Source of the DNA: Pseudarthrobacter oxydans
Lineage (GTDB): Bacteria; Actinomycetota; Actinomycetes; Actinomycetales; Micrococcaceae
Direction: 5' to 3'
Length of the DNA: 64,000 nt
Assembly: GCF_034258515.1 (NCBI RefSeq)
Contig: NZ_CP139438.1
Span: 3,906,001-3,970,000 of the forward strand
The notes beneath the pieces are model-generated. The model saw only the letters and a list, made by a program, of their open reading frames with translations. It searched no databases and was not told the origin of the DNA. Both the position numbers and the translations under genes were made by a program. Each line of letters starts with the position of its first letter. Positions within the stretch are counted from its first letter, which is position 1. Positions 5,408 to 28,915 of the stretch are shown piece after piece.

Positions 5408-5552
5408 CCCCTTGTTTCCTTGCTGAAAACCGCTGAATAACGACGGCGAGGGGTGACTTCACAGCGCCGCTCCCCGCCGCGAATGCCCGACTGATTATTG
5501 ATGCCTTAAGCACATCAATCGGTGCTCAATTTGGTATTGGATTCGAATTGAA

Positions 5553-5567
5553 CACTCTGCGAGAGTG
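5553..5567. promoter_or_regulatory. Palindrome upstream of the first TctC gene
   Basis: CACTCT and AGAGTG face each other across GCG, 74 bases before the TctC start in a 233-base gap between the thiolase and transporter genes. Its arms resemble the CACTCC/GGAGTG core of the palindromes at 16903 and 21200, but the spacing is one base shorter, so it may be bound by another regulator or have no function. Confidence 0.35.
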
Positions 5568-5640
5568 ATCTAGCTAACACAAAGGCGATCAACACAATGT
5601 GCAAGACCAACCACCAACCCGAACGACAATGAGGTCCGTT

Positions 5641-6633: not shown

Positions 6634-6651
6634 ATCAGCAAAGGCATGGAT

Positions 6652-7185: not shown

Positions 7186-7186
7186 T

Positions 7187-8767: not shown

Positions 8768-8850
8768 TTCCGCGCCGCCACGTCCATCCGTGAGCGCCAT
8801 CGGTTGCGAGTCAACCGAAAGACAATTCGACAGAAAGACAAGGGAGCACC

Positions 8851-9849: not shown

Positions 9850-9889
9850 GCCGGGTAACAATCGTCGTCCTAGTCAACGGGAGATTTTC

Positions 9890-10345: not shown

Positions 10346-10362
10346 GGGGCCTCGGCAGGCCG

Positions 10363-11277
10363 GTGGACAAGAGAACATCCCTCAGCGAGGCTGTGGCGGA
10401 GCACATCCGGGACGGCCAGCTTGTTGCCCTTGAAGGATTCGGGCACCTGGTTCCGGTGGCGGCTGCCCACGAAATAATCCGGCAGGGACTCCGTGACCTG
10501 ACGCTGGCCCGGATGACCGGCGACGTGCTGATTGACCAACTGCTGGCGGCCGGTTGCCTGAAGGGAGTCATCGGCTCCTTTGTCGGAAACAGTTCGGCAG
10601 GCTCGCTCCACGAGCTGCGCCGGCGGGTGGAGAACTCGGACCCCGTTCCGTTGGATCTTGAGGAATACAGCCACGGGGGCATGGTTTGCCGGTACCTTGC
10701 GGGTGCCTCGAAGCTTCCGTTTTATCCCATCAACTCCTACCGGGGCAGCGATCTGGTGGCACTGAACGGAAAGATCCGGTCCGTCAAGGACCCGTACGGC
10801 GGGGAGGAAATCCACGTGGTCCCGGCGCTGAATCCCGACGTGACGATCATTCACGCGCAGCGGGCCGACCGGGCCGGCAACATCCAGGCGTGGGGCATTC
10901 TTGGCGTGCAGGCCGAAGCTGCCTTCGCCGGGAGGAAGGTCATCGTTACGGTCGAGGAAATAGTGGACGACGCCGTCATCCGCTCCGACCCGAACCGCAC
11001 CATCGTTCCATCCCACGTAGTCGACGCAGTGGTCCACTGCCCGCGCGGAGCGCATCCTCATTCGGTCCAGGGCTACTATGACCGCGACGACGGGTTCAGC
11101 CGCCGCTGGTCCGAGCTCGCCCGCGATCCGCGGCGGCTTCGCGACTGGCTGCAGGAAAACATCCACGGCACCCGGGACCATGCGGAGTATATTGCCCGTC
11201 TCGGCCCGGACTACTGGGACCGCCTGCAGGTCGAGGCGGCATTCTCCGTTCCGGTCAACTACGGAGGCCGCAAATGA
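10363..11277 (+). CDS. CoA-transferase subunit A (family I, glutaconate CoA-transferase/IpdA-like)
   Basis: The 304-residue protein starts with GTG and the family-typical DKRTSLSEAVAEHIRDGQ. It has the GFGHLVPVAAAHEIIRQG loop and the NPDVTIIHAQRADRAGNIQ block of alpha subunits. It overlaps the beta subunit gene by four bases. Family I enzymes either move CoA between acids or, as in IpdAB, hydrolytically open a ring; both fit this catabolic operon. I cannot choose between them from sequence. Confidence 0.85.
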   Translation: MDKRTSLSEAVAEHIRDGQLVALEGFGHLVPVAAAHEIIRQGLRDLTLARMTGDVLIDQLLAAGCLKGVIGSFVGNSSAGSLHELRRRVENSDPVPLDLEEYSHGGMVCRYLAGASKLPFYPINSYRGSDLVALNGKIRSVKDPYGGEEIHVVPALNPDVTIIHAQRADRAGNIQAWGILGVQAEAAFAGRKVIVTVEEIVDDAVIRSDPNRTIVPSHVVDAVVHCPRGAHPHSVQGYYDRDDGFSRRWSELARDPRRLRDWLQENIHGTRDHAEYIARLGPDYWDRLQVEAAFSVPVNYGGRK

Positions 11278-12110
11278 GCATCACGGAACGATCGGAAAAA
11301 TCATCGACACGCGTATCCTGCCGCCAAACGGAACCTGCACAGCCGGAAGTGACCAGCAGCGAGCTTCTCACCACCCTGTCCGCCCGTGCGCTGGAAGGAA
11401 AGCATGTGGTGTTCGCCGGACACGGACTTCCCACCCTGGCAGTGTCCTTGGCGCAGCGGACGGTTTCTCCCGGCGTCGAAATAATCTATGAGTCAGGCGT
11501 GACCGGGGCGCAGCCGGCAGACCTGCCGCGCAGTATTTCGGATTCGGTCCTCGTCACCGGCGCGGCGGGGGTCCTCCCCATGGCGCAGCTGTTCAACTTC
11601 GTGCTGCAGGGACAGCGCGTGGACGTCGGATTCCTCGGTGCCGCCCAGGTGGACAGATACGGCAGCCTGAACTCCAGCCTGATCGGTAAGGACTGGCGGG
11701 CGCCGGCCAATAAGCTCCCAGGCTCCGGGGGCGCCATCGAGGCGATGGCCGGGGCCGGCGAAATCTTCGTCGTGATGCGCCGGCACAATCCCCGGTCCCT
11801 CGTGGCAGACCTCGATTTCTGCACCACGCCCGGACCGCGCCGGGCGGCGGCGGCCCGCGGCGGCATGATGCCCGCGGGCCTGGGCGTGACCACCGTCATT
11901 ACGGATCTGGGCATCATGACACGCCGGGGCATCGACGAAGAGCTTGTCCTTACCGCTGTACATCCCGGCGTCGAGGTGGACGACGTCAGGGCAGCCACAG
12001 GGTGGGACCTGGAGGTCTCGAAGAACCTGGTCACCACGGTGCCGCCGACCGGCCGGGAACTGGCACTGCTGCGGGACGTGTTGGATCCGGAGCGGGTATA
12101 CCTGCGATGA
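11274..12110 (+). CDS. CoA-transferase subunit B (family I)
   Basis: The 278-residue protein begins with an ATGA overlap on subunit A. IIYESGVTGAQP carries the glutamate that becomes the glutamyl-CoA intermediate in family I enzymes, and GFLGAAQVDRYGSLNSS is typical of beta subunits. It has an unusual 30-residue polar N-terminal extension before the conserved part starts at about residue 28. It is the last gene of the forward operon and is convergent with the MFS gene at 12193. Confidence 0.87.
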   Translation: MSITERSEKSSTRVSCRQTEPAQPEVTSSELLTTLSARALEGKHVVFAGHGLPTLAVSLAQRTVSPGVEIIYESGVTGAQPADLPRSISDSVLVTGAAGVLPMAQLFNFVLQGQRVDVGFLGAAQVDRYGSLNSSLIGKDWRAPANKLPGSGGAIEAMAGAGEIFVVMRRHNPRSLVADLDFCTTPGPRRAAAARGGMMPAGLGVTTVITDLGIMTRRGIDEELVLTAVHPGVEVDDVRAATGWDLEVSKNLVTTVPPTGRELALLRDVLDPERVYLR

Positions 12111-13673: not shown

Positions 13674-15320
13674 TCAGCGGGCGGTGGGGCTGTGTTGCTT
13701 GTCGGCATGCTGGGCTGCCGGCGCCCCCGCACCCGGTCCTGAAGAGGCGGCGGGGAGTACTGCTGGGTCACCGCCGTCGGACGTGGCCTGCGGAGCTTGC
13801 TCCTCCGCCACCGGCACGTGAGGGGAGGCCTTGGCTCCGGCAAAGCGGCGCCGGAAGCCGCTGACGGCCTTGATGGCAATGACGGCGAGAATAAGGCTGA
13901 AAATGATTGCGGCGGCCGGGTCGGTGACAAAGATGTCGAGGCTGCCGCCGGAAATCAGCATGGACTGTCGGAAGGATTTTTCCAGGATAGGTCCGAGGAC
14001 GAAGGCCAGGACCAGCGGGCCGGCGTCGAAACCTGTCTTGGACATGATCCACCCGAGGACGCCGAAGGCCAGCACAACCCACATGTCGAAGGAACTGTTG
14101 TTGATCGAGTAAACGCCGATCAACACGATCAGCAGCGAAAAAGCGACGAGGATGCCTTGGCGCACGCGCAGCATCTGGATGAAGATGCCCACGAGCGGAA
14201 TGTTGAGGATGAGCAGCATCAGGTTGCCGATGTACATCGAAGCGATAACGCCCCAGAAGAGGCCGGAGTGATCGGTCATCAGCCGCGGACCCGGGGTGAT
14301 GCCGTGCATCAGCAGGGCGCCGAAGATCATTGCCAACACCACGTTGGAGGGAATGCCAAGCACCAGCAGCGGAATAAACGCCGTGGTCGAGGACGCGTTG
14401 TTCGCCGTTTCCGGTCCTGCGACACCTTCGATGGCACCCTTTCCGAACCGGCTGGGATCCTTCGCCCGGCGCTTCTCCAGCGCGTAGGAGGCCAGGGAGG
14501 AGATGACTCCGCCGCCGCCGGGAAGGATGCCGATGAAGAATCCGAGGACCGATCCTCGGCCGATGGCACCGGCAGAGTCCTTCATGTCCTTCCGCGAAGG
14601 CCAGATGTTTTTGATCTTGGCCTTGATGGCCTGGGCTTTTTCTGTCTGTTCGAGGGATCGCAGCAGTTCAGCGACGCCGAACAGGCCCATTGCCACGGCC
14701 ACGAAGTCCAGGCCGCCCAGCAGCGGCGCCTGGCCGAATGTGAAACGCGCCGACCCGTTGACGGGATCCTGTCCGACCGTGGACAGGAGCAGGCCGACGG
14801 CGGCCGTGCATACGCTTTTGATGGTGGATCCGGTGCCCAGGGACGTGACCAGGAACAGGCCCATGACCATGAGGGCAACAAAGCCGGCCGGACCCATCGA
14901 CAGGGCGATCTTGCCCAGCGCGGGCGCCATGAACGTCAGGCCGATGACGGCCACGGTGCCGCCGATGAAAGAACCTATGGCGGAGATGCCCAGGGCCGCG
15001 CCGGCACGGCCCTGCTTGGTCATCTGGTAGCCGTCGAAGGTGGTCACCACCGAGGCTGCCTCGCCCGGCAGGCGCAGCAGCACGGAAGTGATGGTGCCCC
15101 CGTACATCGATCCGTAATAGATGCCGGCCAGCATGATGATCGAAGCGGTCGGATCCATGGTGTAGGTGATGGGCAGCAGCAGCGCAATTGTCGCCGTGGG
15201 GCCCAGGCCGGGCAGGACGCCGATGGCGGTTCCCACCACCACGCCGATCAGGACGAACAGCAGGTTCACCGGGTCTAAGGCCACCGAGAAGCCTTCACCG
15301 AGGTTGCTCAGGATATCCAT
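13674..15320 (-). CDS. TTT-family large membrane subunit TctA (second system)
   Basis: The 548-residue protein starts MDILSNLGEGFSVALDP at ATG 15320; an extension to 15401 would run into tctB. It shares the GVLPGLGPTATIALLLP, GGGGVISS and GVAGPETANNASST motifs with the 7187 protein, and the two are near-identical over long stretches. The last 70 residues form a cytoplasmic, alanine- and proline-rich tail that the first copy does not have. Confidence 0.93.
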   Translation of the reverse strand: MDILSNLGEGFSVALDPVNLLFVLIGVVVGTAIGVLPGLGPTATIALLLPITYTMDPTASIIMLAGIYYGSMYGGTITSVLLRLPGEAASVVTTFDGYQMTKQGRAGAALGISAIGSFIGGTVAVIGLTFMAPALGKIALSMGPAGFVALMVMGLFLVTSLGTGSTIKSVCTAAVGLLLSTVGQDPVNGSARFTFGQAPLLGGLDFVAVAMGLFGVAELLRSLEQTEKAQAIKAKIKNIWPSRKDMKDSAGAIGRGSVLGFFIGILPGGGGVISSLASYALEKRRAKDPSRFGKGAIEGVAGPETANNASSTTAFIPLLVLGIPSNVVLAMIFGALLMHGITPGPRLMTDHSGLFWGVIASMYIGNLMLLILNIPLVGIFIQMLRVRQGILVAFSLLIVLIGVYSINNSSFDMWVVLAFGVLGWIMSKTGFDAGPLVLAFVLGPILEKSFRQSMLISGGSLDIFVTDPAAAIIFSLILAVIAIKAVSGFRRRFAGAKASPHVPVAEEQAPQATSDGGDPAVLPAASSGPGAGAPAAQHADKQHSPTAR

Positions 15321-15333
15321 GTGAGGGTCCGTT

Positions 15334-15846
15334 CTAGACGAAGGCGTCAAGCGCCAGGTCGGCGGGGAAGGGTACGCCGAGGAGCCGGTCGAAGATGACA
15401 TAAAGCACTGCCGGGCCAGCCGCGGCGAAGACAGCCGTCCAGCGCCACGACTCCCGGCCGAACACCCGAAGCCACAACAGGAGCATCAGCACGGCCGGGA
15501 TGAAGAAGCCCACCAGTTCGAAGAGCACTATGAACGCGGCAAGGCTCGCGATGCCGGCCATTACCGACACGCTCCGGCGGCCCCAAGCCTCCAGCGGCTC
15601 ATGTCCCGGCCACACGATCAGTGCCGCGGCGCTGAAGACGATGGCCAGCGAGATGGCGAACGGCCAGAGGCCAGGGGCAGGATTGTGCAGGGTGCCCAGC
15701 TTCAACTGCCATGACCCGGCCGCAGCCCCAAGGCCCAGTGCGAGCAGGACGAGCGGAGCGATTCTGCGCTGCCAGCGCAGGACGCCGGTGCGGGGCCTTT
15801 CCGGTTCCCGGATTTCGGCGGCCGCTTCCACGGGAGTAGAAACCAT
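15334..15846 (-). CDS. TTT-family small membrane subunit TctB (second system)
   Basis: A protein of about 170 residues with four membrane segments and the LHNPAPGLWPFAIS motif. ATG 15846 follows AGAAGGGTGA; an ATG ten codons upstream (15876) lacks a ribosome site. It matches the 6652 product in layout, including the C-terminal LLGVPFPADL. It lies between tctC and tctA on the reverse strand. Confidence 0.82.
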   Translation of the reverse strand: MVSTPVEAAAEIREPERPRTGVLRWQRRIAPLVLLALGLGAAAGSWQLKLGTLHNPAPGLWPFAISLAIVFSAAALIVWPGHEPLEAWGRRSVSVMAGIASLAAFIVLFELVGFFIPAVLMLLLWLRVFGRESWRWTAVFAAAGPAVLYVIFDRLLGVPFPADLALDAFV

Positions 15847-15901
15847 GGGTTCACCCTTCTTCGTGCCGGCCGTCATTGGCCGGCGGTTGAGTCGTTGTTA
15901 G

Positions 15902-16873
15902 TTACTTCGCCAGGAGGGGCTCGTAGCGGGTGCGCATGTCGGCAAAAACCTGCTGGGTCGCTTCCCCATTTGAGAAGCTGTTCGGCACGAACCGGTCGCC
16001 GATCTGGCCGATGACTTCGGTGTCCTTGCTGCAGGTTTCGACGCCGCTTTCGAGTTTCTCCGAAACCTGCTGCGGCAGGCCCTTGGGGGCGAAGAGCCCG
16101 TAGACCGAGGTGGTCTTGACGTCGAAGCCGGCCTCCTTGGCCGTGGGAGCGTCGGGGAAGGCCTCCGAGCGTGCTTCACCGGCAGCAGCGAGCGGGACGA
16201 GGGCGCCGTCTTTCACCTGGGCCTCAACGTCGAGGTAGTCGTTGACGAATCCGGCGTCGATGTGGCCGCCCAGCAGGTTGGTGATCAGTTCGGCGCTGCC
16301 GGAGGTGGGAACCAGCGCGAACTCGATGCCGCTCTCCTTCTGCAGGCGCTTGAGTTCAGTGGCCAGCGAGCTGGTGGCTCCGGGAACACCGATGGAGATC
16401 TTCCCGGGGTTGGCCTTGGCGGCGTCGAACAACTCCTGCAGGCTCTTGTACGGGGAGTCCTTTGGCACGGCGAAAAGGGTGGGGATGGCTGCCATGGTGC
16501 CCAGGGCCTGGAAATCGTCCTGGGAGTAGGCCAGGTCGTTGCTCATCGGGTTCAGGACCATAGGCCCGTTGGTGCTGAGCCCTACGGTGTAGCCGTCGGG
16601 TTTGGCGCCGGCCAGCTTTTGCATGGCCACTGCACCTGCTCCGCTGTCAAGGTTCTCCACCACGAAGGTGCCGCCCAGCATCTTTCCGAGGCAGGCCCCG
16701 TAGGCACGCGCCGTTGTATCCGAAGGCCCTCCGGCGGCATAGGGCATGACGAACGTAATGGACTTGGTCGGGTAGCTTTCGGATGATGCCTTGGAGGCAC
16801 CGGAGCAGGCCGTGACGGAAAGCGAAAGGCCGGCGACAGTGACGGCAGCGAAGAACACGCGAGTCTTGTTCAA
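15902..16873 (-). CDS. TTT-family substrate-binding lipoprotein (second system)
   Basis: The product of about 323 residues starts at TTG 16873 after AGAGGTTACC, with NKTR and a hydrophobic signal ending in the lipobox VTACS. The mature part has SYPTKSITFVMPYAAGGPSD and VVENLDSGAGAVAMQKLAG. A longer reading to 17008 would run back through the promoter and palindrome at 16903-16963 and is rejected. It is the first gene of the tctCBA set and lies just downstream of that operator. Confidence 0.88.
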   Translation of the reverse strand: MNKTRVFFAAVTVAGLSLSVTACSGASKASSESYPTKSITFVMPYAAGGPSDTTARAYGACLGKMLGGTFVVENLDSGAGAVAMQKLAGAKPDGYTVGLSTNGPMVLNPMSNDLAYSQDDFQALGTMAAIPTLFAVPKDSPYKSLQELFDAAKANPGKISIGVPGATSSLATELKRLQKESGIEFALVPTSGSAELITNLLGGHIDAGFVNDYLDVEAQVKDGALVPLAAAGEARSEAFPDAPTAKEAGFDVKTTSVYGLFAPKGLPQQVSEKLESGVETCSKDTEVIGQIGDRFVPNSFSNGEATQQVFADMRTRYEPLLAK

Positions 16874-16902
16874 GGTAACCTCTGGTGGTTTCGGTCTGAA
16901 GT

Positions 16903-16963
16903 TGAGAGTGCACTCCGCAAGGAGTGCCCTCTCAGTAATACAGGATTGTGACCGGCGGCACAA
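16903..16963 (-). promoter_or_regulatory. Promoter with large palindromic operator before tctC
   Basis: On the reverse strand a -35 TTGTGC (16958-16963) and -10 TATTAC (16935-16940) are separated by 17 bases. Directly after the -10 is a 32-base inverted repeat: left arm TGAGAGTGCACTCC (16903-16916), spacer GCAA, right arm GGAGTGCCCTCTCA (16921-16934), with 13 of 14 arm positions paired. A near copy lies at 21200-21231. The position fits a repressor that blocks initiation, most likely the TetR protein at 22491. Confidence 0.7.
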
Positions 16964-16982
16964 CCGCCTCCGGTGAAATAAA

Positions 16983-17867
16983 TCATTCGTTGGGTGCTGC
17001 TGATTCAAGCCGGGAGACGCTCAGCGCCGCCCGGGGTTTCATGAAGGCGTCCCACAGCGGCCCGGTTGAGATCCACCGCAGCGGATCCATCAGGGCCAGG
17101 CTGCGCGGGACGAATACCTTGCGCCGGCGCGCGGCGATCGCGCCAACGAGAAGGTCGGCGCAGGTGTCCGTGCTGGACACCACGCTAAACGGCCACGGAA
17201 GGGAGCGGCTCTCCCCGGCCCGGCTTCCCGCCCCGGAAATCATGCCGGTGCTCACCCATGCCGGATGCGCGACGCCCACGTCAACGCCCTTATGGGCCAG
17301 TTCCAGCCGCAGCGCCCCGCCGAAGGCCTCCACGCCCGCCTTGGAGGCGGCATACGCGTTGGCCCGCGGAACATTCTTCAACGCGGCGGCCGAACTCATG
17401 AGCAGGTAGTAGCCCCGGTTCGCGGTGATCTCCTCCAAGGTGGCCTTGACGGTCCTGATCACACCGCCAAGATTGACGTCGACGATCCGCAGCAGGTCCT
17501 CGGTGCTGGAAACGGCCACCGTGGAGGCACTGCCGATCCCGGCGCAGGCAAAGACGATGTCCAGCCGGCCGAAGTGCTCAACTGTCCGCCGGGCTGCGGC
17601 CTGCAGGGACATTTGGTCCGTCACATCCGCTGCCGTGGCCAGATGGCCCTCTCCCAGCGTGGAGACCAGCTGGTCCAGGGCTGGCTGGTCGCGGTCGACG
17701 AGGGATACGTGTGCTCCCGCGGCGGCCAGGCGCCGGGCCGTGGCCGCGGCGATACCGCCGGCACCGCCGGTAACCAGTACCACCTTGCCCCGCAGCCTGT
17801 CCGGCCCCCGCAATCGGTCCGTCCCGCTCCCGCCCGCCTCCGGAGGATTCAAGGATTGGAATCTCAT
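16983..17867 (-). CDS. SDR-family oxidoreductase
   Basis: The 294-residue protein has a cofactor loop TGGAGGIAAA, in which the third glycine of the usual TGxxxGxG is alanine, then the CAG version of NNAG, Ser in LMSSAAAL and YAASKAG. About 25 extra residues precede the Rossmann fold, and the C-terminus resembles membrane-associated SDRs. It overlaps the SDR gene upstream by four bases (ATGA) and so is coupled to it. Substrate unknown; an alcohol/ketone step is likely from context. Confidence 0.85.
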   Translation of the reverse strand: MRFQSLNPPEAGGSGTDRLRGPDRLRGKVVLVTGGAGGIAAATARRLAAAGAHVSLVDRDQPALDQLVSTLGEGHLATAADVTDQMSLQAAARRTVEHFGRLDIVFACAGIGSASTVAVSSTEDLLRIVDVNLGGVIRTVKATLEEITANRGYYLLMSSAAALKNVPRANAYAASKAGVEAFGGALRLELAHKGVDVGVAHPAWVSTGMISGAGSRAGESRSLPWPFSVVSSTDTCADLLVGAIAARRRKVFVPRSLALMDPLRWISTGPLWDAFMKPRAALSVSRLESAAPNE

Positions 17868-18634
17868 CCCATGTACGACCCTCCGTTGACGTCAACCGTG
17901 ACGCCCGTGACGAAGCCGTTTTCAACGGCGGCCAGGTACTGGACGGCCTGGGCAACGTCATCGGCGCTGCCCAGCCGGCCCACCGGGATGCGGCTGAGAT
18001 AGTTCCGGTTGACTTCGTCGGAGACGCCGGCGGCCATGCCGGCGTCGATCCGCCCCGGGGCGATGGCGTTGACGGTGATACCGAACGGTGCCAGTTCCCG
18101 CGCGAAGGAACGGGTCAGGCCCAGCAGGCCCGTCTTGGTCGCGGCGTAGTGGACGCCGCCCAGCCTGCCGCCGTCGCGTCCTGCCAGGGAGGACATGTTG
18201 ACGATCCTGCCGAATCCGGTGTTCTTCATGTGCGGTACCAGGGCCTGGATACCCAGGAACGGGCCCGTGAGGTTTACCGCCAGGACACTCGTCCACTCCT
18301 CCAAGGGGACTTCGTCACCCGGGATCTTTTGTCCGTCCCGTTTCGGGGAGATGCCGGCGTTGTTGACCAGCACCGCAGGGGTTTCCGGGCTGGCCTCCAC
18401 CGTCTCTGCGATCCGCTGCCAGTCGCCGGGCTCAGTGACGTCACACTGCATTGCCTGCAGGGATCCGCCCTGCGGATCCAGGTCCGCCCGGAGGCCGGCC
18501 AGTGCGGAGTCTGATGCATCCACGGCGATCACCCGGTCCCCGCTGGCCAGGAATGACTCCACGATGCCGCGGCCGATGCCCCCGGCCGCGCCGGTGACGA
18601 CGACTGTTCGGTGGTGCTGCTGGTTGTTACTCAT
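17864..18634 (-). CDS. SDR-family oxidoreductase (FabG-like)
   Basis: The 256-residue classical SDR has TGAAGGIGRG, an NNAG motif, MSSLAG serine and YAATKTG. Unlike its neighbour at 16983, the glycine loop is intact. The C-terminal SYMG end and GRIDAGMA block are typical. It lies 63 bases after the monooxygenase gene and would be cotranscribed with it; oxidising the alcohol substrate to the ketone used by the monooxygenase is the simplest role. Confidence 0.87.
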   Translation of the reverse strand: MSNNQQHHRTVVVTGAAGGIGRGIVESFLASGDRVIAVDASDSALAGLRADLDPQGGSLQAMQCDVTEPGDWQRIAETVEASPETPAVLVNNAGISPKRDGQKIPGDEVPLEEWTSVLAVNLTGPFLGIQALVPHMKNTGFGRIVNMSSLAGRDGGRLGGVHYAATKTGLLGLTRSFARELAPFGITVNAIAPGRIDAGMAAGVSDEVNRNYLSRIPVGRLGSADDVAQAVQYLAAVENGFVTGVTVDVNGGSYMG

Positions 18635-18697
18635 GCTTTCTCCGTTCCTCGTTGAACGGGAGGCGGCCTTCTTCTCGGCAGTCTCCCCGTGGGGCCG

Positions 18698-20227
18698 TTA
18701 GCGCACTCCGGCCAGGGCTTCTTCCCTGGCTTGGTCCGTGGATCCGGCCAGATAGGGTTCAGGGTCAAAGGGCGCGTTGACTTGGCGGAAGGTATAGGCC
18801 GGTTCCGGCCATAGTGTGGTCAGCCGCCCGTTGCGGTGGTCAACGTACCAGCTGCTGCAGCCGCCGTCGAGCCACACAGTGCCCTGGGCCAACTGGTCCA
18901 CACGGCCTATGAAGGCATCCTCCGCTTCCCTGCTCACCTCCAGCGCCGGCACAGCGGCCTGGTCGCGGAAGTTCACCGCGCCCATGATGTAGTCGATCTG
19001 GGCCTCGGCGATGTAGACGGCGGAGTTGTGGCCCAGCCCGGTGTTGGGCCCGTTGATGATCCACAGGTTCGGGAACCCATGCACGGCCGTGGTGGCGTAG
19101 GCCTGCATGCCGTTGGCCCAGCGTTCACTGAGCGGCTGGCCGTCGCGGCCGTAGATGCGGTAGGCAATGGGCAGGTCTGTCGCTTCAAAACCCGTGCAGG
19201 CGATGATGACATCCAGTTCGTGGCTGCCTCCGTCCCCGCCGATAACACGGTTGCCCTCCACACGCGTGACGCCGCCGGTTTCCAGGTGGACGTGCTCCTG
19301 CGTGAACGTCGGGTAGTAGTCGCTGGATTTCAGGACCCTCTTGCAGCCGAACGTGTAGTCCGGGGTTAGCTTCCGGCGCAGTTCCGGATCCTCAATCTGC
19401 CGGTGGAGATGGTCCAGGGCGACCTGCGCTGCAGCGGAGACCAGCGTCGGGGTGCCCCGGCGCTGGGCGTAGCGCTCCTCGTTGGACCAGAACATCTCCT
19501 CCCGCAGTTCCTGCATCACCTCGGGCATCTTGCGGAAAAGACCCTTTTCCTCCTCGGTGTAGGCCCGGTCCGGTCGCGGCGTCACGTACGGGGCCGAGCG
19601 CTGGAACACAACGACCTCCCCGGCGATCTTTGCCACCTCGGGCAAGACCTGGATGGCCGTGGCTCCCGAGCCGACGATGCCCACCCGCTTGCCCGCCAGG
19701 TCAATCCCGTCATTCCACTGCGCTGAGTGGAACACTTCGCCGGAGAAGTCGCTCAGTCCCTCGATATCGGGCATCTTCGGCTCGGACAAATGCCCGACGG
19801 CGGTCACCAGGGTTTTGGCTGCAAACTCACCCTTAGGGGTGCTGACTTTCCACAGCGCTTCCGCCTCATCCCAGCGGGCATCGGTCAGTTCGGCGCCGAA
19901 CACGATCCGTTCAAGGAGGTTCTCTTCCCGGGCAACGCTGCGCAGGTAGCCGAGGATTTCCTCCTGGGGGGCGAACATCCGGGACCATTCAGGGTTGGGG
20001 CGGAAGGAAAACGAGTACAGCAGCGACGGCACATCGCAGGCCGCGCCGGGATAGTGGTTGTCGCGCCAGGTTCCGCCCACGTCTTCCGCCCGTTCGAGAA
20101 TGATGAATGAGCGTTCGCCCTCGCGGGCCAGTTTTGCGCCCATGCCAAGGCCGCCAAAGCCTGTGCCGACGATGATGACGTCGACCGGCGAACCGGACGC
20201 CGGATAACCCATAGGGGTACTTTCCAC
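18698..20227 (-). CDS. Flavin-dependent Baeyer-Villiger-type monooxygenase
   Basis: The product is about 509 residues. It has an FAD-binding IIVGTGFGGLGMG near the N-terminus, the fingerprint FSGEVFHSAQWND (FxGxxxHxxxW) and a second dinucleotide loop VGSGATAIQV for NADPH. Such enzymes insert oxygen next to a ketone to give an ester or lactone. GTG 20227 follows GGAGGAACA; a TTG at 20278 would overlap the hydrolase gene. It lies between an alpha/beta hydrolase and two SDRs, the classic ketone degradation layout. Confidence 0.9.
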   Translation of the reverse strand: MESTPMGYPASGSPVDVIIVGTGFGGLGMGAKLAREGERSFIILERAEDVGGTWRDNHYPGAACDVPSLLYSFSFRPNPEWSRMFAPQEEILGYLRSVAREENLLERIVFGAELTDARWDEAEALWKVSTPKGEFAAKTLVTAVGHLSEPKMPDIEGLSDFSGEVFHSAQWNDGIDLAGKRVGIVGSGATAIQVLPEVAKIAGEVVVFQRSAPYVTPRPDRAYTEEEKGLFRKMPEVMQELREEMFWSNEERYAQRRGTPTLVSAAAQVALDHLHRQIEDPELRRKLTPDYTFGCKRVLKSSDYYPTFTQEHVHLETGGVTRVEGNRVIGGDGGSHELDVIIACTGFEATDLPIAYRIYGRDGQPLSERWANGMQAYATTAVHGFPNLWIINGPNTGLGHNSAVYIAEAQIDYIMGAVNFRDQAAVPALEVSREAEDAFIGRVDQLAQGTVWLDGGCSSWYVDHRNGRLTTLWPEPAYTFRQVNAPFDPEPYLAGSTDQAREEALAGVR

Positions 20228-20270
20228 TGTTCCTCCAATGTGTGTGTTGTTGCGTGCTGGTCCCGACGGG

Positions 20271-21113
20271 CTAGACAAAGAGTGCTTCCCGGATCCGGCC
20301 CGCAGGAGAAGCGGCGGGGTCCGTCACAAATTCGTTGATGAGCTGGAACAGCTGGGCCGGGCGCTCCTGCGGGACGGCGTGACCACTGTCGATGACCGCG
20401 TAGCGGGCGTTCGGAAGGCCTCCGAAAAGGAGCTGGGTCTGCCGGGCGGGCACCATCTGGTCGTGGGCGCCGGCAATGACCAGGGACGGAGCGGTGATCG
20501 CTGTAAGCCTGCCGGTCAGATCGGCGACGGCGTTGAGCCGCATCTGCCCGGCAATCCCCTCCGGGAAGGTCCGGGCATCAATCAGGGCCTGGATGTCAGC
20601 GTCGCCCCGGCCGGCAAGGAAAGGGTGTCCATAGGCTGTCCAGGTGACGAACTCGCGCAGGAGGTCCTGATCCGACTCGAAGAGCCGCTTCCAGATCCGG
20701 TTGCGAAGCCGCTGCTGGGCGTCGGCCCTGACCCAACCGGCCACCAGGGTCAGGCTTGACACGCTTTCGGGGCGGGAAGCGGCGAGGTCGGCCGCCACCA
20801 GTGCGCCCAGTGAGTAGCCGACCACATGGACCGGCTGAGCAGGAGCGCGGTGGTCGATGACGGCCGCAACCTGCCCTGACAATCCGTCGAGGGTCGGTTC
20901 CCCGGCAGGGCTCTGCAGGTCAACGGCCAGGACACGGTACCGGGCGGCAAGCATGGGAAAGAGGGTGCGGAAATGAGTCTTGGCGCTTCCGCCCGTTCCG
21001 TGGACCAGGACCACGGTGTCCCGGGAGTCTTCCGGTGCAAGCGTGTCATGGAAAGGAACCGAAAGGCCCCCGACGTGGACGGCACCCTCGTTTGCATCTG
21101 GATGAATCTTCAA
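20271..21113 (-). CDS. Alpha/beta-hydrolase
   Basis: The product is about 280 residues. It has the oxyanion loop VLVHGTGGSAKT, nucleophile elbow GYSLGA (Ser), an acidic residue in VIAGAHDQMVP and the final His in DSGHAVPQE, a complete catalytic triad. TTG 21113 is spaced seven bases from GAAGGG; TTG 21119 is too close. It is the first gene of the reverse operon and would open the ester or lactone made by the monooxygenase. Confidence 0.88.
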   Translation of the reverse strand: MKIHPDANEGAVHVGGLSVPFHDTLAPEDSRDTVVLVHGTGGSAKTHFRTLFPMLAARYRVLAVDLQSPAGEPTLDGLSGQVAAVIDHRAPAQPVHVVGYSLGALVAADLAASRPESVSSLTLVAGWVRADAQQRLRNRIWKRLFESDQDLLREFVTWTAYGHPFLAGRGDADIQALIDARTFPEGIAGQMRLNAVADLTGRLTAITAPSLVIAGAHDQMVPARQTQLLFGGLPNARYAVIDSGHAVPQERPAQLFQLINEFVTDPAASPAGRIREALFV

Positions 21114-21198
21114 TTCCAATCCCTTCGAATTTGACTGGCCGGTGCTGATAACGATGAGGGGATCCGATCGGGTGCAGGCAACGCGCAGTCACGCGATA

Positions 21199-21231
21199 TT
21201 GAAAGTGCACTCCGTGCGGATTACACTCTCA
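21199..21231 (+). promoter_or_regulatory. Promoter overlapped by the palindromic operator (divergent region)
   Basis: TTGAAA (21199-21204) and TACACT (21222-21227) are separated by 17 bases and point towards the alcohol dehydrogenase. The palindrome covers both boxes: left arm TGAAAGTGCACTCC (21200-21213), spacer GTGC, right arm GGATTACACTCTCA (21218-21231), 11 of 14 positions paired. The left arm differs at one base from the operator at 16903. A bound repressor would block the forward promoter and could also control the hydrolase operon on the other side. Confidence 0.7.
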
Positions 21232-21277
21232 TAAAAGCATAAGAGTGATACGAAGCACAATCGTTGGAAGGGAAACC

Positions 21278-22399
21278 ATGAAGATTACCGGCGCGGTCCT
21301 GGAGACCGTCGGCTCCCCCCGTCCGTACGCCCGGTCCCGCCCGCTTTCCGTTGCGGAGCTTGACCTCGCCGGGCCGGGACCGCAGGAAGTCCTGATACGG
21401 ATGGAGGCTGCGGGTATCTGCCACTCGGACCTCTCCGTGGTCAACGGCGACCGCCCCCGTCCGCTGCCCATGCTGCTCGGCCACGAGGCCGCCGGGACGG
21501 TCGTCGCTGTCGGCGCGGATGTCGATGACCTTGAACCGGGCCAGCGGGTGGTCACGGTTTTCCTGCCGCGCTGCGAGGAGTGCCCCAACTGCCGCACCGG
21601 GGGCAAGCTGCCGTGCAGCGTCGGTACAGAATCGAACGGGGCCGGAACGCTGCCAGGGGGGTCCACCCGACTGACGCGTGCCGGCCAGCCTGTCCGTCAC
21701 CACCTCGGAGTCTCCGGGTTCGCGACCCATGCCGTGCTCAGCCGCCGCTCGGTTGTCCCGGTCGGAAGCGACGTGCCGCCGTCGGTCGCTGCACTTCTTG
21801 GGTGTGCGGTGCTGACTGGAGGCGGGGCCGTCATCAACGCGGGGAATCCCCAGGAGGGGCAGGACATCATGATCGTCGGCCTCGGAGGAGTCGGCATGGC
21901 TGCTCTGCTGACCGCCGTCGCAATCTCCTCAGCGTGGGCCGAACCCGCCCGGATCATCGGCGTCGATGCGAACCCGGACAAACTGATCACAGCGCGGGAA
22001 CTGGGGGCAACAGAAACGTACTCGCCTGCCGAGGCCGCGGACCTGGGCATCCGGGCCCACATCGTCATCGAGGCGGCCGGCCACCCCCGCGCCTTCGAAA
22101 CCGCGGTGCAGGCCACGGCGCCCGGCGGCACCACGGTGACTGCCGGACTGCCGGCTGCGGGAGTGCTGTCATCCATTGAACCGTTGGGGATCACAGCCGA
22201 GGCCCGCACCATCGTCGGTTCCTACCTGGGCTCCGCAGTACCCGCCCGCGACATCCCGGTCTACGCCCAGATGTGGCGCGAAGGAAGGCTGCCGGTCGAA
22301 AAACTGGCTTCGTCGGTGATCACCCTGGACAACATCAACGAGGCGATGGATGAACTCGCCGATGGAAATGCCATCCGCCAGATCGTGATGTTCAATTGA
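21278..22399 (+). CDS. Zinc-dependent alcohol dehydrogenase (MDR family)
   Basis: The 373-residue medium-chain dehydrogenase has catalytic zinc ligands in AAGICHSDLS and GHEAAG, four structural zinc cysteines in CEECPNCRTGGKLPC, and a GLGGVG coenzyme loop. ATG 21278 follows GGAAGGGA; an earlier start at 21245 lies in the promoter region. It would oxidise the primary or secondary alcohol released or consumed by the divergent monooxygenase/hydrolase operon. Confidence 0.9.
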   Translation: MKITGAVLETVGSPRPYARSRPLSVAELDLAGPGPQEVLIRMEAAGICHSDLSVVNGDRPRPLPMLLGHEAAGTVVAVGADVDDLEPGQRVVTVFLPRCEECPNCRTGGKLPCSVGTESNGAGTLPGGSTRLTRAGQPVRHHLGVSGFATHAVLSRRSVVPVGSDVPPSVAALLGCAVLTGGGAVINAGNPQEGQDIMIVGLGGVGMAALLTAVAISSAWAEPARIIGVDANPDKLITARELGATETYSPAEAADLGIRAHIVIEAAGHPRAFETAVQATAPGGTTVTAGLPAAGVLSSIEPLGITAEARTIVGSYLGSAVPARDIPVYAQMWREGRLPVEKLASSVITLDNINEAMDELADGNAIRQIVMFN

Positions 22400-22490
22400 G
22401 AGTTATCGGCACCAGAACTGAACCCCGGCAGCTGCGAACGGCCGCCCGGTACCCCACCGCTGATAGGAACGTTAATAAAGGATGAAGACG

Positions 22491-23144
22491 ATGACTTCGG
22501 AGGCCTCCGCAAGTGGTGCTCCCGTCGGGCTGCGCGAGAAGGCCCGGATCGAGCGTTACCAGAACATCCGCGCTGCAGCAGAACAGCTCTTCAACGAGCG
22601 GGGCTACGAGCACACCACCACCAAGGAGGTGGCCGAGCTTGCCGGGGTCGGGGAGGCCACCCTCTTCCGTTACGTCAGCAACAAGCACGAACTGCTGCTG
22701 CTGGTTATCGGCGAGCGCATGGATACGACGCTCCAGGCCATCGAAGACGCGGACAAGGAACTGGCCGCCAATACTTCCACCGCGCGGGACTATGTGGAGC
22801 GGATCTACGCCATCTTCCGTGCACGCGCCCGGTTCTACGCAACCGACCCGGAGAACGTCACGAGCTACCTGCACCACGGCTTCAAGGCCGGAAGCCAGCT
22901 CGGGGCCCAGAGCATCTCCCAGGGCGACAGGGTTATCGCCCTGATCGCCGCCATCCTCGACGACGCCAGGAAAGCCGGATATCTCAGCGCCGACGTCGAC
23001 TCACTGATCGTTGCGCAGAACTGCAACGGAACCTATATCCACGAGATCCTTCGCACCCCGGCGCGCGGATTCCGCCCGGAGGATCTCTGGGAGAAACTCC
23101 GCGAGCGACTGCGCGTGCAGATCGAACCGCTTTTCCGGTTTTGA
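22491..23144 (+). CDS. TetR-family transcriptional repressor
   Basis: The product is about 217 residues. The N-terminal helix-turn-helix is clear: IRAAAEQLFNERGYEHTTTK followed by EVAELAGVGEATLFRYVSNK. The C-terminal ligand-binding part is not assignable. ATG 22491 is spaced eight bases from AAAGGA; ATG 22482 touches that site. It is the last gene after the alcohol dehydrogenase and is the most likely protein to bind the twin palindromes at 16903 and 21200. Confidence 0.88.
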   Translation: MTSEASASGAPVGLREKARIERYQNIRAAAEQLFNERGYEHTTTKEVAELAGVGEATLFRYVSNKHELLLLVIGERMDTTLQAIEDADKELAANTSTARDYVERIYAIFRARARFYATDPENVTSYLHHGFKAGSQLGAQSISQGDRVIALIAAILDDARKAGYLSADVDSLIVAQNCNGTYIHEILRTPARGFRPEDLWEKLRERLRVQIEPLFRF

Positions 23145-23532
23145 AAGATCCAGCGCCTGCCGGCAGGGCGTCCATCTGGGCCGAGAAGCAGGAGTCGCTT
23201 GACTGAGGTCGTCCAATCCGTTGTCCACCCCTAGAAAAGGCGTCCAGGGCTCGTGGTCCCGCAGGATGTGCTCCTAGCTTCCCTGTTACTGCGGGCTTTG
23301 TGGTCACAACCGCCGCCTACGCGATCCTGATGGCGGAAAGCGGCCTGGTCAGGCCCTCTGCAAATGCTGTTCGGTTACCGCGTTGACGTAACCGGCATCA
23401 CTATCCTATTCTTGATGAAACGATTCAAGGGAAAGGGCTTTCCAAAGTCCGGCACCCTTCAAGGTCCACGTCGACCGTCCGGAACACAACAGCTCCGGTT
23501 CCTTGCCAAAGACGACGAAGGAATTCACCAGA
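23145..23532. other. Non-coding stretch with a gene remnant and promoter
   Basis: This 388-base gap holds no credible intact gene. It contains a decayed fragment of a rifampin-phosphotransferase-like gene (23278-23349) and, further on, a likely promoter for the MHS transporter: TTGACG (23383-23388) and TATTCT (23407-23412), 18 bases apart. GAAGGA near 23516-23521 could serve the transporter start at 23533. Confidence 0.5.
23278..23349 (+). pseudogene. Remnant of a rifampin-phosphotransferase/PEP-synthase-like gene
   Basis: About 72 bases align with 26524-26595, including an exact run of about 31 bases. Translated in the same frame it reads SFPVTAGFVVTTAAYAILMA and matches residues 34-58 of the larger gene at 26424 (GFPVPAGFVVTTAAYATLLA). 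Nothing else of that gene can be found next to it, and a stop (TAG) immediately precedes it. It is best explained as the leftover of a second, older copy. Confidence 0.7.
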
Positions 23533-24936
23533 ATGAGCACCACCCCCGGGGAAACCCGTCCTATCCCGGAAGCCGGCGCTGGCCAGCGGGACCCGAAGAA
23601 AGCGGCGATGAGCGGCTGGATCGGAAGCGCACTCGAATACTACGACTTCGCACTGTACTCGCTGGCAGCGACGCTCATCTTCCCCGCCATCTTCTTCCCC
23701 ACCGAAAACCCGACCGTGGGGATCATCGCCTCGCTGGCCACCTATGCGGTGGGCTACGTCTCCCGCCCGGTAGGCGCCGTCGTACTGGGAGCATACGGTG
23801 ACCGGCACGGCCGCAAGCAGGTGCTCGTCTTCGCCATGCTGCTGATGGGCTTCGCCACCTTCGCCGTCGGACTATTGCCCACGTACGGACAGGTGGGCAT
23901 CCTGGCGCCAATAATGCTGGTGATCCTCCGCCTCATCCAGGGCTTCGCCGTCGCAGGAGAACTGGGCGGCGCCAGCGCGATGATCGTGGAGCACTCCCCC
24001 GACGCCAGGCGCGGCTTCTTCGCAAGCTTCAGCCTGCAGGGCACCCAGGTGGGCTCCATCCTGGCCACCGCCGTCCTGCTTCCCCTTGCAGCCATCCTGC
24101 CCGCCGACCAGTTCCAGGCCTGGGGCTGGCGGATCCCGTTCCTGCTCAGCGCCTTTGTGATCCTGGCGGGCTACGTTATCCGCCGCCGGGTGCAGGAGCC
24201 GCCGGCGTACGTAGCCCAGACCGAAACGGGCAAGGCCAAGCAGCGGTTCCCCCTCGTTGACCTGGTCCGCGGCTACCCGTGGGTCCTGGTCCGCTGCATC
24301 CTGATGACCTTCACCAACGTGATCGGTATGGCTACGCTCATCTTCGGTGTCTCCTACGCCACGCAGAAGGGCTACGGCAACGGCTTTTCCAGCAGCGACT
24401 TCCTGTGGGTCACGCTCGTGGCCAACATCGCCGCCGTCGTCACCATTCCGCTGTTCGGCGCTCTCTCGGACAAGATCGGCCGGCGGATGCTGATGGTGGC
24501 CGGCGGCGTCGGCGGTGGCGTGCTGGCCGGCGGATACCTGTGGGCCATCGAGCAGGGAAGCCTGGCACTGGTCTTCGTCTGCATCGTGATCGTCCAGGGC
24601 ATCTTCTTCCAGATGTGGAACGCCACCTTTGCCACGTTCTTCCAGGAGCAGTTCCCCATGCGGATCCGCGTCACAGGGTTCGCCGTGTCGCAGAACGTGG
24701 GCCTCATGATCGCATCGTTCTTCCCAAGCATCTTCACCGCCGTCGCTCCCCCGGGATCCGCCAACGTCCCCCTGGTCATCGGGCTGACCACGCTGGGTAT
24801 CTGCGCCGTCGCAGCGCTCGCTACCCTCCTGTCCCCCGACACCAAGGGCAAGTCGCTCGGCGACCTCGAGACCCGCAAGGGCAAAATTGAGGCGCCAGAG
24901 CCCGCTCCTGCCCGTGAAAGCGTGGCGGCGGGGTAA
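23533..24936 (+). CDS. MFS transporter of the metabolite:H+ symporter (MHS) family
   Basis: The 467-residue protein has about 12 membrane segments. MSGWIGSALEYYDFALYSLA with an acidic residue in helix 1, YGDRHGRKQVL in loop 2-3 and LQGTQVGSILA are typical of MHS members that carry shikimate, proline/betaine, citrate or aromatic acids. ATG 23533 is favoured over TTG 23503. The gene stands alone behind its own promoter and ends at a strong terminator. Substrate unknown. Confidence 0.87.
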   Translation: MSTTPGETRPIPEAGAGQRDPKKAAMSGWIGSALEYYDFALYSLAATLIFPAIFFPTENPTVGIIASLATYAVGYVSRPVGAVVLGAYGDRHGRKQVLVFAMLLMGFATFAVGLLPTYGQVGILAPIMLVILRLIQGFAVAGELGGASAMIVEHSPDARRGFFASFSLQGTQVGSILATAVLLPLAAILPADQFQAWGWRIPFLLSAFVILAGYVIRRRVQEPPAYVAQTETGKAKQRFPLVDLVRGYPWVLVRCILMTFTNVIGMATLIFGVSYATQKGYGNGFSSSDFLWVTLVANIAAVVTIPLFGALSDKIGRRMLMVAGGVGGGVLAGGYLWAIEQGSLALVFVCIVIVQGIFFQMWNATFATFFQEQFPMRIRVTGFAVSQNVGLMIASFFPSIFTAVAPPGSANVPLVIGLTTLGICAVAALATLLSPDTKGKSLGDLETRKGKIEAPEPAPARESVAAG

Positions 24937-24981: not shown

Positions 24982-25020
24982 AAGCGGTCGACGGCGGGAC
25001 TCCCCGCCGTCGACCGCTTT
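24982..25020 (+). terminator. Rho-independent-type terminator
   Basis: A perfect 17-base-pair stem (arms at 24982-24998 and 25003-25019) with loop ACTC lies 46 bases after the MHS transporter stop and is followed by T-rich TTTCGTT. It ends the transporter transcript and separates it from the TM2/PH pair. Confidence 0.85.
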
Positions 25021-26423: not shown

Positions 26424-28915
26424 ATGACTGAAAAATTTACCGGGATGCTCGCCGACTTCGGCGCCGCGGACCTGGCGTTGGCTGGCGGAAAGGGAGCCAA
26501 TCTCGGTGAGCTCGTGCGCCACGGCTTCCCTGTTCCAGCGGGCTTTGTGGTCACAACCGCCGCCTACGCCACCCTGCTGGCAGAAACCGGCCTGGGCGCC
26601 GAACTGGAAGGGTTGCTCGAAGCCGAAAACGCCGGAGCACGGATCCGCGCGCTGTTCGCCGAATCCCACGTGCCGGCGTGCGTCACCGCTGATATTGCGG
26701 CGGCTTACGCCGCGCTGGGCGGCGGTCCGGTGGCCGTGCGTTCCAGTGCCACCGCCGAAGACCTGCCAGGAGCCGCCTTTGCCGGGCAACAGGACACTTT
26801 CCTGAACGTTGTCGGCGAGCAGGCAGTGACCCGTGCCGTGGTGGAATGTTGGGCTTCGCTGTGGACGGACCGCGCCATCGCCTACCGGCAGCGCCAGGAG
26901 ATCAACCCGCGGGAAGTGTCGATTGCCGTCGTCGTGCAGGACATGGTGCCGGCGGACACCGCGGGAGTCCTGTTCAGCGCGAACCCGGTAACCGGCGAGC
27001 GCGGTGAAATCGTGGTCGATGCCAGCCCCGGCCTGGGCGAGGCCGTGGTTTCCGGACGCGTCACGCCGGAACACTACGTGCTGGACCGTTCGGGCCGGAC
27101 AAAATCGTTCATCCCGGGCGCCCATGAGGTTGTGATCCGGGCCCTTGCCGGCGGGGGCACCCGGGAGAGCGCCGGCACGGGCAGCCGGCAGGCTGCCCTC
27201 GGCACAGGGCAGTTGGCGGAACTGGCGCGGCTGGCAATAGTGCCCAGGATCATTTCGGCCGGCCGCAGGACATGGAATGGGCCATCACCGGCGGGCGCCT
27301 GTACGTGCTCCAGTCGCGGCCGATGACCGCCCTGCCGCCGCAGCCACTACACCTGAACCCGTTCCAGCGCCTGATGGGTCCGTTCTTCCTGGAGATGTTC
27401 CAGGAACGTCCGTATCCCCTGGACGTGTCCGGCTGGATGCAGCGCGGCATTCTGGCCATGCTGCACGGCATGGCCGGAAGCGTCGGCGTCGTCTTCCCGT
27501 CGGTGAACGACTTGCTGCCGGAGGAGGACGGCGTGGTGGTCCGGCTGGTTCCTCCGGTGCCGCACCCTACACTTCGCACGCTCGGCGCACCCGTTTCCGT
27601 GGTGCGCCGGGCCCGCCGGTTCAATCCAACCCGGTGGACCCGGGACAGCAGGTTCGCCACATTCCTGGAGAACCTCCGGCGGCTCAACGCCCAAGACCCC
27701 CGGACCTTGGCCTGGCGAGGGGTGATCGGGCTCGCGGAGGACGCCTTCGCCACGATGCGGGGGATCACCGAGCTGCGGATCTCGTACCTGCCGGGAGCTT
27801 TCCTTCCGCAGGCCAAGCTGCGCCTGATGCTCATGCTGCTGGGCAAGAGGCACCTTGGCCCGGCACTCATCGCCGGCGCGGAAACCCGCACCAGCCAGGC
27901 AAACCGTGCGCTGGAGGCCCTGGCCGACCAGGTCCGGTCGCATGGCACGCTCGCCCGGGCCTTCACGGAACTTGAACCGGGCGAACTGCTTTCCCGGCTG
28001 GAGCACGATCCTGAATTCAAGGAATTCCACACACAATTCCAGGCATTCCTGGCAGAATACGGCCACCGTGAAACCGTCAGCGTGCTCTTGTCCAGTTCAC
28101 CAACCTGGTCCGATGCCCCCGAGGTGGTTCTAGGCCTGGTCACCTCCATGATGGGAGAGCGGCGGCCGGCCGCAGACCAAACCGGCCAGGCCCTTGCGGA
28201 ACTGAAACGTCATCCCGCCCTGCGGATCGCGGCCCTGCGGCGGCACCTGCTGTCCGCCGTCGACGCCGCAAAAGCCGGGACCGCCTTCCGCGAAGACAGC
28301 CACTTCTACGCCACCATGGTGCTGCCGCCGCTCCGGCGCGCGCTGTCCGAACTGGGCCGGCGGTTGTGCGATGCCGGGGTGCTGGCTGATGCGGCCGATG
28401 TCCAGCACCTGCGCTTTGAAGAACTGGCGGGAATGGACGACGGCGGCGCGCTGCCTGCCGCCGAGAGGGAACGCTACCGCCGGCTGGTGCTGGCCAGGGC
28501 CGCGAAACGCCGGGAACTGGAAGGCATTCCGCTGCTGGACACGGCAACGCTGTTCGCTCACATGCGTCCGGCGCCCGGGACTCTGGCGTCCGGCATGCCC
28601 GCCAGCCGCGGCCAGGCCACCGGGACGGTGAGGATCATTCGCGGGCCGGACGAATTCGGACTGCTCCGCAGCGGCGAGGTCCTGGTCTGCCCCTACACCA
28701 ACCCATCCTGGACTCCCCTGTTCCAGCGCGCGGCCGCCGTCGTGGTTGACGCCGGCGGGATCGCCTCCCATGCTGCCATCGTCGCCCGGGAATACGGGAT
28801 CCCCGCCGTCATGGCCACCGGGTCGGGGACCCGTGACCTGCAGACCGGCCAGCTGGTCCTGGTGGACGGCACCCGCGGACAGGTCACGGCGGCTGTTGCG
28901 GAGCCGTCGTCGTGA
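26424..28915 (+). pseudogene. Rifampin phosphotransferase-like (PEP-utilising) enzyme gene with a frameshift
   Basis: Two overlapping frames make one protein of about 830 residues. The first (26424 to about 27240) is the ATP-grasp domain: [40 protein letters not shown] and GLGEAVVSG. The second (from about 27245) resumes with DHFGRPQDMEWAITGGRLYV and LQSRPMTAL and ends in the swivelling His domain, GGIASHAAIVARE (His codon 28769-28771). The order ATP-grasp, middle substrate domain, His domain, with no C-terminal PEP barrel, is that of rifampin phosphotransferases. One base appears lost between about 27236 and 27251. It may be a broken gene, a programmed shift or a sequencing error. The real substrate is unknown. 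Confidence 0.75.

Follow-up and report, generated by a model that had tools for sequence, protein, structure and literature searches.

The DNA analyzed here (the window) is a 64,000-nucleotide stretch of the Pseudarthrobacter oxydans genome (contig NZ_CP139438.1, positions 3,906,001 to 3,970,000), in which a tripartite tricarboxylate transporter (TTT) operon, a predicted ketone-degradation operon and a TetR-type regulator gene lie beside two similar 32-bp palindromes, termed operators 1 and 2. Seven collinear genes are encoded on the reverse strand. The leftward operon begins with the gene for an alpha/beta hydrolase (20271–21119; PF12697/PF00561), a candidate ester/lactone hydrolase, followed by those for a type I Baeyer-Villiger-type flavin monooxygenase (BVMO; 18698–20230; PF13738/PF00743) and two short-chain dehydrogenases, SDR2 (17864–18634; PF13561) and SDR1 (16983–17867; PF00106), the last gene of the operon. 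After a gap of 109 nt comes tctC (15902–16873; TTG start; PF03401, 8.9e-48), which encodes the TTT solute-binding protein, then tctB (15334–15846; PF07331) and tctA (13674–15320; PF01970, 3.1e-156), which encode the small and large membrane subunits, respectively. TctA, TctB and TctC all scored above their family cut-offs and constitute a full set of TTT subunits. On the forward strand, the zinc alcohol dehydrogenase gene adh (21278–22399; PF08240, PF00107) heads a unit that includes tetR (22482–23144; PF00440, 1.3e-13), for which an alternative start at 22491 is used in public entries of 217 amino acids.

Operator 1 (16903–16934; TGAGAGTGCACTCC-GCAA-GGAGTGCCCTCTCA) is located 29 nt 5' of the tctC start codon, and operator 2 (21200–21231; TGAAAGTGCACTCC-GTGC-GGATTACACTCTCA) occupies the gap between the divergent hydrolase and adh genes. 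An initial annotation of the window had described twin palindromes at these positions, and this description was confirmed: the two left arms share all but 1 of their 14 bases, the spacer is 4 bases in both, and the arms are complementary at 13/14 pairs in operator 1 and at 11/14 pairs in operator 2. A search of the window with the operator pattern at up to three mismatches returned only these two places (mean 0.00 in 100 shuffled sequences). The genome-wide search suggested by the annotation gave the same result at the same stringency across the single 4.44-Mb contig, with no match to a reversed-pattern control; neither a further copy of the operator at up to three mismatches nor a perfect copy of a related 16-bp palindrome, TGANAGTNNACTNTCA, was present in this genome. 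Palindrome strength was rejected as sufficient evidence for operator 2, since three unrelated palindromes of the same 14-4-14 layout, with at least 11/14 pairs, occur between 10 and 30 kb of the window. The weight of the evidence therefore falls on the likeness of operators 1 and 2 to each other and on their conservation.

Relatives of the TetR protein were sought in one genome per species, with samples taken at the family, order and phylum levels; few candidates were scored per genome (14 in the genus and 7 at each wider level), so the tallies are lower bounds. At E 1e-30, and counting the window's own genome, relatives were found in at least 9 of 206 genomes of the genus, at least 7 of the 395 in the family sample and at least 4 of the 396 in the order sample. 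The phylum sample yielded a TetR alignment at E 1e-40 in at least 1 of 396 genomes, the window's own alone, and 92 relatives were recovered at E 1e-20 among 5.8 billion proteins.

The hydrolase-BVMO-SDR-SDR, adh and tetR gene set, together with tctC, was found in nine genomes of four genera (L017 and L040 being one genome). These comprise the window's genome, strain GA104, listed under the same species, and Pseudarthrobacter MDT3-9; Cryobacterium Y57 and Y82; Paeniglutamicibacter quisquiliarum ABSL32-1 and two more Paeniglutamicibacter; and Kocuria flava, on plasmid 1. Each whole genome contained exactly two operator matches, at equivalent places, so that the conservation of the repeats in relatives, on which the initial annotation had staked its proposal, was observed in 9/9 cases. 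In the six genomes outside the genus, operator 2 is 88–97% identical to that of the window, as against 49–54% in the left and 62–77% in the right flank; operator 1 is 75–91% identical, with flanks of 45–74% and 59–69%. The Kocuria flava plasmid (L021, NZ_CP013255.1, 6302–36916), 113 kb in length and typed as mobilizable, carries the whole cluster with both operators. The plasmid-borne cluster adjoins beta-oxidation and TRAP transporter genes.

The product of tetR contains a TetR_N helix-turn-helix domain (PF00440, 50.9 bits against a cut-off of 24). Its AlphaFold2 model (pLDDT 92.3) is an all-helical fold of nine helices, for which the best match was Thermus thermophilus FadR, followed by Bacillus FadR and EthR; by sequence, Mce3R ranked first and FadR second among solved structures. 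The segment GEATLFRY, which we take to mark the recognition helix, is identical in 26/26 aligned proteins (the window TetR and 25 homologs picked from the 92) and is kept in 19/23 rows of a second alignment, the exceptions being G040, G478, G294 and G634. In the window's genome (G000), this gene was the only member of its TetR subfamily found at E 1e-25. Operator 2 precedes the adh-tetR unit, which places a palindromic candidate site for the protein at its own transcription unit.

To compare operators across the 206 genus genomes, a looser pattern was used (TGANAGTNNACTCC-N4-GGANTNNACTNTCA, up to three mismatches), which matched 12 genomes, against 1 for the reversed control. Palindrome-like matches, present on both strands, were found in 8 of the 9 genomes bearing this TetR and in none of the 197 TetR-less ones, defined as having no match at E 1e-30 (Fisher p 1.3e-13, uncorrected for kinship). 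Four TetR-less genomes had one-strand, three-mismatch matches only. The looser pattern had been widened after sites were seen in four of the eight (G083, G201, G159 and G099). A position weight matrix was trained on 13 sites already seen, and its scores at those sites are circular; the mismatch counts are independent of it, although those made with the looser pattern come from a pattern widened once these sites were known. TetR homologs of 35–51% identity in five further genomes (G017, G083, G201, G159 and G099) have similar 32-mers in their fetched surroundings, situated before the hydrolase gene (G017, G083), before tctC and tetR (G201) or before a flavin reductase gene (G159). The TetR relative in G201 (L035) is accompanied by four 32-bp sites within 20 kb and one ~6.5 kb beyond; these are spread around two distinct TTT operons together with SDR, CoA-transferase and phosphotriesterase-family genes, and the whole is probably a larger regulon.

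The promoter assignments of the initial annotation held in part. An adh promoter box, TTGAAA-N17-TACACT at 21199–21227, is overlapped by operator 2 and is plausible, but it is one of two sigma-70-like matches in 15300–23600, where 1.0 ± 1.2 are expected by chance. The tctC candidate, TTGTGC-N17-TATTAC, ends right at operator 1; it was read by eye and is absent from the list of sigma-70-like matches. Operator 2 also abuts the presumed promoter of the hydrolase operon. The annotation had assigned operator 2 to the alcohol dehydrogenase unit, an assignment that agrees with the position of the site but is incomplete, because a divergent site can also control the hydrolase-BVMO-SDR-SDR operon.

A second conserved motif accompanies both operators. 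It reads TTGTGCCGCCGGTCAC at 16948–16963 and TTGTGCTTCGTATCAC at 21245–21260, both on the reverse strand. Read in the direction of tctC, the first copy starts 29 nt ahead of operator 1, and read in the direction of the hydrolase gene, the second starts 29 nt ahead of operator 2; both copies have counterparts in 9/9 cluster genomes. In the general form TTGTG-N7-TCA(C/T), with a variable middle, it begins 28–29 nt upstream of the operator at 18/18 leftward promoters (hydrolase and tctC in nine genomes), which are not all independent, the window and GA104 being nearly identical. The stricter form TTGTG-N7-TCAC has three copies in the window, two of them at these leftward promoters. The third copy (479–494, reverse strand) is at the left window edge and has no operator beside it. 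The motif resembles a CRP/GlxR-like dyad and/or a −35 region: the GlxR/CRP consensus is quoted in one source as TGTGA-N6-TCACA (PMC7999487), and the counterparts here are TGTGC-N6-TCACA before tctC and TGTGC-N6-TCACT before the hydrolase gene, both overlapping the −35 position. CRP-type helix-turn-helix proteins are encoded in the genome. That both leftward promoters follow one layout, operator plus second motif, provides a second sign of joint control.

Near some of the remoter TetR homologs (34–43% identical), the 16-bp palindrome TGANAGTNNACTNTCA was found. A search for perfect copies in 41 genomes or records (21 TetR-bearing and 20 TetR-less controls) revealed eight sites in 4 of the 21 (one in G478, two each in G294 and G634, and three in an R. 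opacus plasmid) and one site in the controls; G011, G013 and G634 each had one match to a reversed 16-mer. All but one of the eight sites lie 0.2 to 34 kb from tetR, the exception being a far-off G634 site. The nine cluster genomes, with their 32-bp form, had no perfect copy, and neither had the other eight TetR-bearing ones. G832 has one-mismatch 16-mers ahead of both tctC and the hydrolase gene, and two-mismatch copies, which chance nearly accounts for (0 to 0.8 expected in a stretch), occur before the hydrolase gene in G825 and upstream of tctC in G083.

The 32-bp form appears to be related to this palindrome. Across 42 half-sites of 32-mers, outer TGANAG and inner TCC are nearly invariant, and each half corresponds to a 16-mer with an intact outer half and a degenerate inner half (1–5/8 sub-dyad pairs). 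The 32-mer is thus probably composed of two abutting, half-degenerate 16-mers that would accommodate two dimers side by side with centers 16 bp apart. According to one account, TetR regulators binding as two dimers use 22–32 bp (32 bp for CgmR), and single dimers 15–17 bp (PMC4150764); the length of 32 bp, kept as a unit in 9/9 cluster genomes, falls within the range of the dimer-of-dimers subclass. A tree of the TetR proteins, from which L042 was omitted as a fragment match, has weakly supported deep branches, at the level that bears on which of the 16- and 32-bp forms arose first.

The enzymes of the cluster point to a general type of pathway. The best solved relatives of the BVMO are phenylacetone and cyclohexanone monooxygenases (E ~1e-68 to 1e-63). 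Its translation contains GGTWRDNHYPGAACD, a match to [A/G]GxWxxxx[F/Y]P[G/M]xxxD, which we take to be a type I BVMO motif, and FSGEVFHSAQWN, which fits FxGxxxHxxxW[P/D], presumably the type I fingerprint, except at the last residue (N for P/D). The nearest solved chain to the hydrolase is the carboxylesterase 8qzu, and the solved relatives of TctC are of the BugD and terephthalate-binding-protein type. This gene set implies that an alcohol is oxidized to a ketone, which a Baeyer-Villiger reaction turns into an ester or lactone for hydrolysis. Naming a substrate from the enzyme families was abandoned, the NCBIfam results being too generic or below cut-off: among the best 25 matches per protein, those of BVMO, hydrolase, SDR1 and alcohol dehydrogenase were below cut-off, TctA, TctB and TctC had no match, and SDR2 passed one generic FabG subfamily model.

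Gene content around the TetR relatives was surveyed by tblastn with the window proteins (E 1e-10, query coverage of 40% or more). In the 21 TetR-bearing genomes or records (window included), for which the fetched stretches measured 11–31 kb and contig ends limit the counts, relatives of the BVMO were present in 18, of the hydrolase in 16, and of tctA or tctC in 15. The clusters of G083 and G832 additionally contain MmgE/PrpD and Ldh_2 genes. G201 has two TTT sets and a phosphotriesterase-family gene, with no BVMO found in the stretch; G159 has a BVMO relative together with MFS, FMO-type and luciferase-type monooxygenase genes, with no TTT found.

These observations can be explained by a model in which the TetR encoded at 22482–23144 locally represses a catabolic regulon of three transcripts, acting through the two 32-bp operators, a reading to which a probability of about 85% is assigned. 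Without inducer, TetR would occupy both operators. On operator 2 it would close the divergent promoters of the leftward hydrolase-BVMO-SDR-SDR and the rightward adh-tetR transcripts, such that tetR is probably autoregulated; on operator 1, just past the tctC −10 region, it would block tctCBA. Each 32-mer, with outer halves TGANAGT and inner halves CGGAGT, would probably hold two adjacent dimers. Release of TetR from the operators would come from a pathway metabolite, perhaps an imported oxo- or hydroxy-acid or a derivative, and import and ring or chain cleavage would then rise together. While the sequences and gene families, and the positions, uniqueness, conservation and co-occurrence of the sites, were observed, we infer repression, binding, stoichiometry, inducer and substrate from them. 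The proposal that the two units form one regulon with the local TetR as best candidate regulator, made in the initial annotation, is well supported by the twin operators in 9/9 cluster genomes and by their co-occurrence with TetR among the 206 genus genomes.

Several observations weigh against this model or its generality. G040 bears this TetR and has no match to the operator pattern, a differently spaced repeat being located upstream of its tetR. In G017 and G083 the hydrolase promoter alone has a 32-bp site and none was found before the TTT genes; the notion of an operator before TTT in every relative was discarded on this account. No TTT was found in the fetched stretch of 6 of the 21 TetR-bearing genomes or records (G040, G159, G099, G294, G634 and the R. 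opacus plasmid). Within the cluster genomes, tctB and tctA adjoin tctC in 7 of 9; Cryobacterium Y82 has tctC without tctAB after it, and in Y57 no tctB or tctA match was found beyond tctC, where the contig runs only 1.7 kb. Both strains have a tctA of 77% identity ~25 kb off on the same contig. The adh gene is broken by frameshifts in both Cryobacterium genomes (L016 from 7033, L018 from 9117), with operator 2 and tetR intact and an alcohol dehydrogenase relative (63%) ~5–6 kb off, a state compatible with continued control of the hydrolase operon and tetR through operator 2. Finally, GEATLFRY is altered at one or two residues in G478, G294 and G634, which make up three of the four genomes or records with perfect 16-mers, and the recognition helix may differ slightly between the 16-bp and 32-bp forms.

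Other explanations of the palindromes are less probable than repression by the local TetR. A second TetR-type protein is encoded in the window (28912–29568), and the twin sites might serve some such unlinked regulator while the adjacent TetR controls something else; this is very unlikely given that the operators co-occur with this TetR in the genus (8/9 versus 0/197), that they travel with tetR to other genera and a plasmid, and that related palindromes lie near several TetR homologs of 34–51% identity. It is harder still to credit a function in RNA, as a hairpin, attenuator or terminator at the transcript start. Both sites are inverted repeats with 4-base loops, and the leader RNA at operator 1 could hold part of the stem, but operator 2 retains the same imperfect pairing (GGATTA facing ACTCC) in 9/9 genomes and overlaps a candidate promoter rather than an adh leader, and a T-run is absent after either palindrome; the RNA role was rejected on these grounds. 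An improbable, though less strained, alternative is that operator 1 serves mainly as a roadblock or booster control within one long leftward transcript running from the hydrolase gene to tctA. The collinearity of the seven genes, with 109 nt ahead of tctC, would allow such a transcript, but in 9/9 genomes tctC has its own TTGTG-N7-TCA(C/T), spaced from the operator just as at the hydrolase promoter.

The role of the transporter bears on what the regulon is for. It had been proposed that TTT takes up acid released by the monooxygenase/hydrolase path. TTT systems are described as importers of carboxylates (PMC5812351), and a BVMO with an esterase would yield either a hydroxy acid or an acid plus an alcohol; such product scavenging is nonetheless unsupported and unlikely, as the recurrence of TTT with BVMO and hydrolase in some remoter clusters with different dehydrogenases is explained no less well by import of an acidic pathway substrate, and a second operon in the window (510–12110), with its own TTT and without the operator, would be a more natural site of product uptake. 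Import of an acidic BVMO-pathway substrate, perhaps an oxo- or hydroxy-acid, is preferred, at odds somewhat short of even, because an acid transporter often pairs with BVMO and hydrolase while the dehydrogenases vary. Extending the local-repressor model, it may tentatively be suggested that an actinobacterial TetR subfamily, undescribed as far as the literature searches below show, governs mobile catabolic modules in which TTT brings in an acidic ketone, or the corresponding alcohol, for Baeyer-Villiger cleavage, the operator being 16 bp (one dimer) or 32 bp (two) and the helix varying by at most one or two residues. This suggestion was given less credence because the three perfect 16-mer holders noted above have altered recognition-helix residues.

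The 510–12110 operon encodes CoA-transferase III, acyl-CoA dehydrogenase, SDR, thiolase, two TctC, TctA, MaoC and CoA-transferase proteins, its TctA sharing 79% identity with the TctA of tctCBA (13674–16873), and could process pathway products further. Elsewhere in the window, a perfect GC-rich inverted repeat with 14-bp arms and a 4-base loop, perhaps terminator-like, follows an MFS gene (23503–24936) at 24985–25016, and an ice-binding-like protein (PF11999, 6e-67) is encoded at 32913–34205 on the reverse strand.

Ketone catabolic clusters of the cyclohexanone and acetone type combine a type I BVMO with a hydrolase and a dehydrogenase. The cluster described here shares their alcohol dehydrogenase, BVMO and esterase/lactonase set but differs in including TTT. 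Its regulation recalls the EthR-ethA pair of Mycobacterium tuberculosis, EthA being presumably a Baeyer-Villiger type monooxygenase. EthR is described as divergent from ethA, repressing in both directions and binding cooperatively (PMC5403819). Both systems pair a TetR-family repressor with a divergent monooxygenase gene, and EthR chains are among the nearest solved folds; however, EthR is only 17–20% identical over the fold alignment and acts as an octamer at one intergenic operator, whereas two 32-bp operators and a transporter are involved here. T. thermophilus FadR (3ang, 3anp), the best fold match, was crystallized with acyl-CoA according to the structure titles and is only 23–25% identical to the window TetR. 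The long operator is shared with QacR, CgmR and CprB, to which the two-dimer binding suggested here by the sub-dyads would correspond; the source describes these as serving drug resistance or butyrolactone-type circuits (PMC4150764), unlike a catabolic regulon. The transporter genes resemble bctCBA/tctCBA operons in order (tctC-tctB-tctA) and families. Two-component systems beside TTT operons are said to be not uncommon (PMC5812351); in the present case a TetR operator and a BVMO operon are found.

Literature searches returned nothing combining TTT, BVMO and TetR, nor TTT, Baeyer-Villiger and gene cluster. Those on TetR, BVMO and ketone degradation and on TctC and TetR operators listed, as far as titles allow a judgment, no such cluster or regulon, and no TetR-family repressor with a BVMO at a divergent intergenic region was found among the results. 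The proposed regulon is new, of familiar type, and the operator series is its most original feature.

With this cluster, a candidate regulator and its operators become open to testing in a catabolic module that occurs in four genera and, in one instance, on a mobilizable plasmid. The tie between a TTT transporter and a Baeyer-Villiger pathway narrows the substrate search for both, and with an inducer in hand the compact inducible promoter set might be turned into a sensor of ketones or oxo-acids. The single and double operators also lend themselves to comparison and, if both forms do belong to one TetR subfamily as suggested, would be a natural series for the origin of cooperative double operators.

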